DNA of 64,000 nucleotides from Nocardioides exalbidus (GTDB taxonomy: Bacteria > Actinomycetota > Actinomycetes > Propionibacteriales > Nocardioidaceae): positions 2,232,001-2,296,000 of the forward strand of contig NZ_FNRT01000002.1 in assembly GCF_900105585.1 (NCBI RefSeq), given 5' to 3'. The notes below the pieces were generated by a model, which had not been told where the DNA came from, ran no database searches, and saw only the letters and a program-made list of their open reading frames with translations. Positions 47,312-49,565 of this stretch are shown here, piece after piece. The stretch's first letter is position 1. Every line of letters begins with the position of its first letter. A program made the translations under genes and the position numbers.

Positions 47312-47336
47312 AGACAGCCTGCCTACTCTGGTCCTG

Positions 47337-47471
47337 CTCATCACGAGGGACTGAGGGAACGGCCCGTTGAAGTCCCGGCAACCACCCATGAGCCTCCTGT
47401 CCGGAGACCTCCGGCAGTCATGGGAGCAGGTGCCAAATCCGGCCCACGCGAAAGTCGCGGGGACAGATGAG
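47337..47471 (+). ncRNA. SAM-I (S-box) riboswitch upstream of thrC-like gene
   Basis: All SAM-I helices can be drawn. P1 is CTCATC (47337-47342) with GATGAG (47466-47471). P2 is GGGACT (47347-47352) with AGTCCC (47371-47376), enclosing GAGGGAACGGCCC and followed by CGGCAACC. P3 is CCCATGA (47385-47391) with TCATGGG (47418-47424). The conserved joining segment is AGCAGGTGCCAAATCCGGCC, and P4 is CGCG-AAAGT-CGCG (47447-47459). P4 favours SAM-I over SAM-IV. P1 ends just before the GAAGGAGG ribosome-binding site, so AdoMet binding most likely controls translation initiation of the next gene, lowering expression when AdoMet is plentiful. Confidence 0.92.
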
Positions 47472-47483
47472 AAGGAGGACTTC

Positions 47484-48767
47484 ATGAGCACCCTGCTGGA
47501 CGACACCACCCCCGCCTCGGCGAAGAAGGGGCTGCGCGACGGCGCCTTCGGCAACGCCCGTGCGCTCGCCTGCCGCGAGTGCGGCCACGAGGTCGAGCTC
47601 GGCCCGTCCTACGCGTGTCCCGAGTGTTTCGGGCCACTGGAGGTGGCCTACGACTTCCCGGCCGTGACCCGCGAGGAGATCGCCGCCGGGCCCCGCAACA
47701 TCTGGCGCTACAAGGCGCTGCTGCCGGTCCCGACCGACATCGAGCAGAGCCCGAACACCGAGCCGGGCTTCACCCGGCTGCTGGAGGCGAAGAACCTCGC
47801 CCGCGAGCTCGGCATCGACAGGCTCTGGGTCAAGGACGACTCCACCAACCCGACCAACTCCTTCAAGGACCGCGTCGTCGCCTGCGCCCTGAGCGCGGCC
47901 CGCGAGCTCGACGCGAAGGTCTTCGCGTGCCCCTCGACGGGCAACCTCGCCAACGCGGTCGCCGCGGCCGGCGCCCGCGCCGGGATCCCGACCGTGGTCT
48001 TCATCCCGAGCAACCTCGAGACGCCGAAGAAGGTCAACTCGGCGGTCTTCACCGAGAAGCTCGTCGCCGTCGACGGCAACTACGACGACGTCAACAAGCT
48101 CGCGTCCGAGATCGCCGGCGAGGAGGAGGGCTGGGCGTTCGTCAACGTCAACGTGCGCCCCTTCTACGCCGAGGGCTCCAAGACCCTGGGCTACGAGATC
48201 GCCGAGCAGCTCGGCTGGCGGCTGCCCGACCAGATCGTCATCCCGGTCGCCTCGGGCTCGCAGCTCACCAAGGTCGACAAGGCCTTCCAGGAGCTCATCA
48301 AGCTCGGCCTCGTCGAGGACAGGTCCTACAAGGTCTACGGAGCGCAGGCCGCCGGCTGCTCGCCGGTCTCGGTCGCCTACAAGGCCGGCACCGACGCGAT
48401 CCGGCCGGTGAAGCCCGACACGATCGCCAAGAGCCTGGCCATCGGCAACCCCGCCGACGGCGTCTACGTCCTCGACGTCTGCCGCCGCACCGGGGGTGCG
48501 GTCGAGGACGTCACCGACGACGAGGTGCGCGACGCGATCGTGCTGCTCGCCCGCACCGAGGGCATCTTCACCGAGACCGCCGGCGGCACGACCGTCGGCG
48601 TGCTGAAGAAGCTCGTCGAGTCCGGCCAGCTCGACACCTCGCTCGAGACCGTCGTCATCAACACCGGCCACGGCCTCAAGACCCTCGACGCGATCTCCGA
48701 CCGGGTCGGTGCGGCCGCCACCATCGCCCCGTCCTACGACGCCTTCGTCGCCGCCAACATCCTCTGA
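47484..48767 (+). CDS. thrC: Threonine-synthase-family PLP enzyme under SAM riboswitch control
   Basis: 427 residues. A four-cysteine zinc ribbon (Cys30, 33, 45, 48: CRECG...CPECF) heads a fold-type-II PLP domain with Schiff-base Lys128 in NPTNSFKDRVV, phosphate loop CPSTGNLANAVAAAGARAG, VIPVASGSQLTKVDKAF and TAGGTTVGVLKKLVESG. Similarity is to threonine synthase, which acts on O-phosphohomoserine. However, control by an AdoMet riboswitch and the directly linked CysO-like sulfur carrier suggest it may instead add sulfur to O-phosphohomoserine to make homocysteine. Threonine synthase proper would have to lie elsewhere. ATG at 47484 with GAAGGAGG 5 nt upstream. Confidence 0.85.
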   Translation: MSTLLDDTTPASAKKGLRDGAFGNARALACRECGHEVELGPSYACPECFGPLEVAYDFPAVTREEIAAGPRNIWRYKALLPVPTDIEQSPNTEPGFTRLLEAKNLARELGIDRLWVKDDSTNPTNSFKDRVVACALSAARELDAKVFACPSTGNLANAVAAAGARAGIPTVVFIPSNLETPKKVNSAVFTEKLVAVDGNYDDVNKLASEIAGEEEGWAFVNVNVRPFYAEGSKTLGYEIAEQLGWRLPDQIVIPVASGSQLTKVDKAFQELIKLGLVEDRSYKVYGAQAAGCSPVSVAYKAGTDAIRPVKPDTIAKSLAIGNPADGVYVLDVCRRTGGAVEDVTDDEVRDAIVLLARTEGIFTETAGGTTVGVLKKLVESGQLDTSLETVVINTGHGLKTLDAISDRVGAAATIAPSYDAFVAANIL

Positions 48768-48781
48768 GGAGAGACCAGCAC

Positions 48782-49057
48782 ATGAGCGTGTCCGTCCGGA
48801 TCCCCACCATCCTCCGCACCTACACCGGCGGCGAGTCCGAGGTCAGCGCCGAGGGCGAGACCCTGGCCGCGGTCCTCGACGACCTCGACGCGAGCTACTC
48901 GGGCATCAAGGCCCGGATCCTCGACGACTCCGGCGCGCTGCGTCGCTTCGTCAACGTCTACGTCGGCAACGACGACGTCCGCTTCCTCGAGGACCTCGCC
49001 ACGCCGACCCCGGACGGCGTGCAGATCTCGGTGATCCCGGCCGTCGCCGGCGGCTGA
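48782..49057 (+). CDS. cysO: CysO-like sulfur-carrier protein (MoaD/ThiS family)
   Basis: 91 residues, ubiquitin-like beta-grasp, ending in the obligatory Gly-Gly (VIPAVAGG) that is adenylated and converted to a thiocarboxylate. It resembles mycobacterial CysO along its length: VRIPTILRTYTGGESEVSA, LDDLDASYSGIKARIL, RFVNVYVGNDDVRFLEDLAT. CysO normally feeds sulfur to CysM for cysteine synthesis; here the PLP partner 14 nt upstream is a ThrC homologue. GAGGAGA upstream is the ribosome-binding site. The activating enzyme (MoeZ-type) and the Mec peptidase are not in the window. Confidence 0.9.
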   Translation: MSVSVRIPTILRTYTGGESEVSAEGETLAAVLDDLDASYSGIKARILDDSGALRRFVNVYVGNDDVRFLEDLATPTPDGVQISVIPAVAGG

Positions 49058-49094: not shown

Positions 49095-49565
49095 ATGACC
49101 TCGATGAAGCGCACGTCCCTCGTCGTCCTGCTCGCTGCCGTCGTCGGCGCGGGCGCCGCACCGGCGTACGCCGTCACGGACCCGCAGCCGGTGCAGCCGT
49201 TCGTCCCGGGCGCGAACGACGACCCCGCACTCGACCGCGCCTGGCAGCGGTGGCAGGCCAGGGACGTCGACGACTACGTCATCACCGTCCGGACCAGCTG
49301 CTACTGCCGTCCGGCGCCCGCGGTGCGCACCGTCGTCCGCGACGACGAGATCGTCCGGGTGACCAAGGGCCGGCGCGACGTCGGTCCGGTCCTGGGCTAC
49401 TCGATGGACGAGATGTTCACCCGGATCCGCGAGGCCCAGGGCACGGCCGACGCGGTCGACGTCGACTACACGCGCCGCGGCGTCCCGACCTCGATCACGG
49501 TGGACCGGATCGCGGGCGCCGCGGACGACGAGCTCTACTACACGGTGTCGCTCAGCCGCCTCTGA
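49095..49565 (+). CDS. Secreted DUF6174-like protein
   Basis: 156 residues (an alternative ATG at 49104 is better spaced from GGAGGG). A signal peptide (about 4-27, cleaved near AYA-VT) precedes a small domain with WQARDVDDYVITVRTSCYCRP and the CxC pair, then EIVRVTKGR and DVDYTRRGVPTSITVDRI, the pattern of DUF6174. Likely periplasmic or secreted. No functional context; it follows cysO by 37 nt and converges on the GDYXXLXY gene. Confidence 0.7.
   Translation: MTSMKRTSLVVLLAAVVGAGAAPAYAVTDPQPVQPFVPGANDDPALDRAWQRWQARDVDDYVITVRTSCYCRPAPAVRTVVRDDEIVRVTKGRRDVGPVLGYSMDEMFTRIREAQGTADAVDVDYTRRGVPTSITVDRIAGAADDELYYTVSLSRL

Follow-up and report, generated by a model that had tools for sequence, protein, structure and literature searches.

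The window, a 64,000-nucleotide stretch of the Nocardioides exalbidus genome, carries on its forward strand a riboswitch followed closely by two genes. The aptamer of a SAM-I (S-box) riboswitch (47335..47473, + strand), whose P3 is enlarged, precedes metM (47484..48767, +), which encodes a ThrC-homologous PLP enzyme of 427 aa with an N-terminal zinc ribbon, and metO (48782..49057, +), which encodes a sulfur carrier of the CysO/ThiS family of 91 aa with the C-terminal end AVAGG. The gap between the metM stop and the metO start is 14 nt (48768-48781). A gene for a DUF6174 protein (49095-49565) begins 37 nt downstream of metO; it is present in 7 of 81 loci and was rejected as part of the system. 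An earlier reading of the sequence alone had described a complete S-box fold whose P1 ends at the ribosome-binding site, a threonine-synthase-family PLP enzyme with an N-terminal zinc ribbon, and a CysO-like protein ending in GG encoded 14 nt after the enzyme gene, and each of these elements was confirmed by the model matches and coordinates given here.

The covariance model RF00162 (Rfam) matches the leader across its full length (model 1-108; cmscan, 47335-47473, +) with 72.5 bits and an E-value of 5e-15, well above the SAM-I gathering cut-off of 44.4 bits, and an Rfam search of the whole genome of 4.6 Mb found the SAM-I upstream of metM to be the only one. The 3' strand of P1 ends at 47471 and is directly abutted by the Shine-Dalgarno sequence AAGGAGG (47472..47478, +), with the metM ATG at 47484. 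This geometry was examined in 82 leaders, and in all 81 in which P1 could be located it abuts the Shine-Dalgarno sequence with an offset of -1 to 2 nt. As the start codon follows too closely to admit a terminator in between, SAM-I control of metM is most likely translational, to judge by this geometry. An extended P1, in which a 5' GGUCCU pairs with the Shine-Dalgarno region as in the minimum-energy fold, was rejected because its pairing energy across relatives was no better than with 3' partners swapped among loci. Within the enlarged P3, CCUCCU at 47393-47398 is perfectly complementary to AGGAGG in the Shine-Dalgarno sequence; it is a possible anti-Shine-Dalgarno element, and is partly retained in close relatives only.

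MetM matches Pfam PALP (E 2e-67), threonine synthases in the PDB (E 8e-48) and the TIGR00260 thrC model (248 bits, cut-off 167 bits), and has a zinc ribbon of the form CREC...CPEC and the PLP lysine motif SFKDR. The TIGR00260 match shows family kinship, not function; the nearest model is PRK08197, below whose cut-off MetM scores. MetM carries PF00291 only, and is thus distinct from the PF01053 enzyme that acts as homocysteine synthase in systems of the Wolinella type. MetO matches ThiS (E 2e-13), and its best PDB match is M. tuberculosis CysO (3dwg_C, E 3e-28). The C-terminal ends of 70 MetO sequences are GG in 43 and GG-Cys in 22 (among them L045, L046, L048, L060, L061, L063-L067 and others), with GG-Ser extensions in a few. 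The CysO-cysteine adduct is the natural type of Mec substrate in the known CysO cycle, and an encoded GG-Cys end is chemically such an adduct, so that Mec could mature the carriers that end in this way.

The genome has a canonical thrC (365 aa) in a separate hom-thrC-thrB cluster, 32% identical to MetM over the shared region, so that the hom/thrB-linked second thrC which the sequence-only reading had proposed to look for does exist; MetM itself lies outside the ThrC clade, and its gene is linked to neither hom nor thrB. The expected absence of the competing methionine genes holds in part. MetX was not found in the genome, where the best match reaches 22 bits, as against 367-446 bits for the same model in MetX-bearing relatives, and a search for MetA in the genome likewise found none; the acyl-homoserine route is therefore missing, as the MetM/MetO pathway predicts. 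The absence does not extend to genes of the cystathionine gamma-synthase/lyase type: two PLP enzymes of Cys/Met metabolism are encoded, one above the actinobacterial cystathionine gamma-synthase cut-off and the other weaker and cystathionine-lyase-like, and cystathionine beta-synthase (CBS) is present in the same chromosome region as the MetB-type gene (G000:C2:399212-400333). These enzymes would fit better into reverse transsulfuration, since there is no acylated homoserine on which to act.

The genome encodes MoeZ, which adenylates and sulfurates carriers of the CysO/MetO type; the protein scores above its NCBIfam cut-off. The other ThiS-family members found are a MoaD and the CysO of a separate mec-cysO-cysM cluster, which is only 59% identical to MetO. 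This CysO (L013:1498-1770; G000:C2 about 121358-121630) ends VAGGQ, one residue beyond Gly-Gly, and would therefore require trimming before thiocarboxylation, whereas MetO ends at GG; its gene adjoins that for a Mec-like JAMM protease.

Phylogeny separates the two kinds of enzyme, as the sequence-only reading had suggested might be found on comparing the CysO-linked enzyme with canonical ThrC. Thirty MetM sequences, among them those of four families of the order and of Nonomuraea, which belongs to another order, are set apart by a branch supported at 100/99; a second group, supported at 100/97, holds five canonical ThrC, among which are the enzymes of this genome and of Nonomuraea. Both groups span orders, and the split between MetM and ThrC therefore predates these orders. 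An Aeromonas ThrC-like row that broke off after 11 aa was left out of the tree, and the placement of three distant ThrC-like rows was not used because of their long branches. At 30 alignment positions all MetM share a residue that no ThrC or ThrC-like row has there; some of these positions lie in the active-site loop, which reads GNAGN in ThrC and ASGSQ in MetM.

The association of riboswitch and enzyme extends across the order. In a comparative sample of 148 genomes of Propionibacteriales, with metM called at E below 1e-60, the same 103 genomes carry both metM and SAM-I, and none of the other 45 has SAM-I. Of the 104 SAM-I matches, 103 share the strand of metM and precede the enzyme's first aligned residue by 10-90 nt; the single match that does not adjoin metM is G022:C101:1779-1865. 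SAM-I in Propionibacteriales is thus essentially a metM element, and this order-wide co-occurrence led to the rejection of a chance match or pseudo-riboswitch. MetX is rarer where metM is present, occurring in 44 of 103 genomes with metM versus 41 of 45 without it (Fisher p 1e-8, which is only a guide as the genomes are related), and only four of the 148 genomes have neither metM nor MetX. A Nocardioides without metM (G017) has no SAM-I and possesses MetX. In an Rfam scan of relatives' loci SAM-I was upstream of metM in 28 of 28. Among Nocardioidaceae loci metO follows metM in 69 of 80, and it is the sole conserved neighbor of metM, the flanking genes not being conserved. Beyond the order, Nonomuraea gerenzanensis has the same SAM-I-metM-metO arrangement, with 67% identity for metM and 74% for metO.

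The 11 Nocardioidaceae loci in which metO is absent downstream of metM (L056, L070, L077, L081, L082, L086, L087, L090, L093, L095 and L104) have all kept SAM-I; for ten of these, about 3 kb of sequence beyond metM was examined. Nocardioides luteus is one species without metO. Nine of these genomes were searched for a MetO encoded elsewhere, and none was found; each of the nine has one CysO beside mec, and any further ThiS-family proteins in them are MoaD or ThiS-like. CysO is therefore the only candidate carrier in these genomes, and MetM there must use either CysO or free sulfide. Such a distribution suggests that CysO can serve both the cysteine and the methionine pathway. That MetM no longer has a carrier of its own in a sizeable minority of Nocardioidaceae, and instead draws sulfur from CysO, one thiocarboxylated carrier feeding both cysteine and methionine synthesis, is a proposal whose chances we put at about even. 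In several metO-less Nocardioidaceae CysO has a Gly-Gly-Cys tail of the kind found on MetO elsewhere. Three metO-less Nocardioides (L115, L116, L117) have mec-cysO without cysM within the flank examined, with a CysO ending in GG-Cys, and in L119, L125 and L126 cysO and cysM are separated by a small gene resembling that of an NYN-domain nuclease.

There is direct precedent for this arrangement. According to PMC12172450, a paper that cites their work, Hasebe et al. (2024; AEM 90:e01247-24) identified MetM as a Streptomyces homocysteine synthase that acts on O-phosphohomoserine and rescues methionine auxotrophy; metO is found in the same Streptomyces species, and a SAM riboswitch lies upstream of metM in Streptomyces albulus (MetM/MetO accession BHXC01000007). 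The proposal in the sequence-only reading that the enzyme joins O-phosphohomoserine with a carrier thiocarboxylate to yield homocysteine is well matched by this pathway, and gains support accordingly. The proposal is not new, as the pathway including its SAM riboswitch was already published for Streptomyces in 2024. A literature search on SCO4293/SCO4294 and on SAM riboswitch with threonine synthase yielded nothing further on function. The pathway is known, and the N. exalbidus locus is a good new example rather than a discovery. What seem to be additions to the published work are the exclusive linkage of SAM-I and metM across Propionibacteriales, the abutment of P1 on the Shine-Dalgarno sequence with the translational control that it implies, and the metO-less loci that keep CysO.

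We are confident that the locus is a MetM-MetO operon for a methionine precursor under a translational SAM-I OFF switch, and MetM is very likely an O-phosphohomoserine:carrier-thiocarboxylate homocysteine synthase. MoeZ would adenylate and then sulfurate the C-terminal Gly-Gly of MetO to form a thiocarboxylate, and MetM, like threonine synthase, would convert O-phosphohomoserine to a PLP intermediate of the vinylglycine type. The MetO thiocarboxylate, rather than water, would add to C-gamma, and hydrolysis of the resulting carrier adduct, perhaps by Mec, would release homocysteine. In the Streptomyces work thiocarboxylated MetO has reportedly been shown to be the sulfur donor. When S-adenosylmethionine is high, it would stabilize the P1 that abuts the Shine-Dalgarno sequence and so lower translation.

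The main caution for this reading of MetM comes, in our assessment, from a Microcystis homologue, 51.6% identical to S. albulus MetM, which acted in vitro as a threonine synthase and deaminase and formed threonine from O-phosphohomoserine with no clear homocysteine, only an unidentified peak near methionine (PMC12172450). This activity, together with a score exceeding the TIGR00260 thrC cut-off, could mean that MetM is one more threonine synthase, or has two functions and retains threonine formation as one of them, with the carrier serving another acceptor. Such a role is nonetheless very unlikely, given that a dedicated thrC already stands with hom and thrB, that control by S-adenosylmethionine would be senseless for threonine, that the SAM-I linkage to metM is exclusive, and that the active-site loop has changed from GNAGN to ASGSQ throughout the clade.

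The existence of related metM loci without metO counts against the operon reading, and MetM might instead take free sulfide, leaving MetO dispensable, as the 11 of 80 loci lacking a downstream metO, with none elsewhere in the nine searched genomes, could indicate. This is improbable, though, as CysO is kept in all nine and could replace MetO, and metO is the only conserved neighbor of metM. A main route through cystathionine, in which a MetB-type enzyme would use O-phosphohomoserine as the plant enzymes do and MetM would be secondary, can point to the gene above the cystathionine gamma-synthase cut-off. It is hardly to be believed in a genome where the enzymes that make the acyl-homoserine donors are absent, where CBS in the same chromosome region fits reverse transsulfuration with cystathionine gamma-lyase, and where the sole SAM-I is on metM.

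Comparison with known systems places the MetM/MetO pathway among several relatives. MetM shares with canonical ThrC its fold, the SFKDR PLP lysine motif and the predicted substrate, but belongs to a separate clade in an organism that has its own canonical enzyme in hom-thrC-thrB. The CysO-CysM-Mec system of M. tuberculosis likewise joins a CysO-type carrier with a C-terminal GG to a fold type II PLP enzyme, and N. exalbidus has its own mec-cysO-cysM as well; MetM/MetO differs in its predicted product, homocysteine and not cysteine, and in a partner related to ThrC and not CysM. In the HcyS-HcyF-MetY-HcyD system of Wolinella succinogenes a thiocarboxylated carrier supplies the sulfur for homocysteine, as proposed for MetM/MetO, but MetY has a PLP fold unrelated to that of MetM and uses O-acetylhomoserine. 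Closest is S. albulus MetM/MetO, with a ThrC-like enzyme, an adjacent carrier gene, an upstream SAM riboswitch and O-phosphohomoserine, predicted here, as substrate (Hasebe et al. 2024, as cited in PMC12172450); the present case differs in its host order, Propionibacteriales, in having relatives without metO, and in an enzyme activity that is predicted.

Comparative genomics of the whole order supports the view that genes annotated as "threonine synthase" and "MoaD/ThiS family protein", where a SAM-I riboswitch precedes them, form a methionine pathway. The MetM/MetO reading corrects a misannotation that is likely to be widespread, and the metO-less cases are well suited to a clean test of whether cysteine and methionine synthesis share a carrier. 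It also explains how many actinobacteria without MetX or MetA could make methionine.
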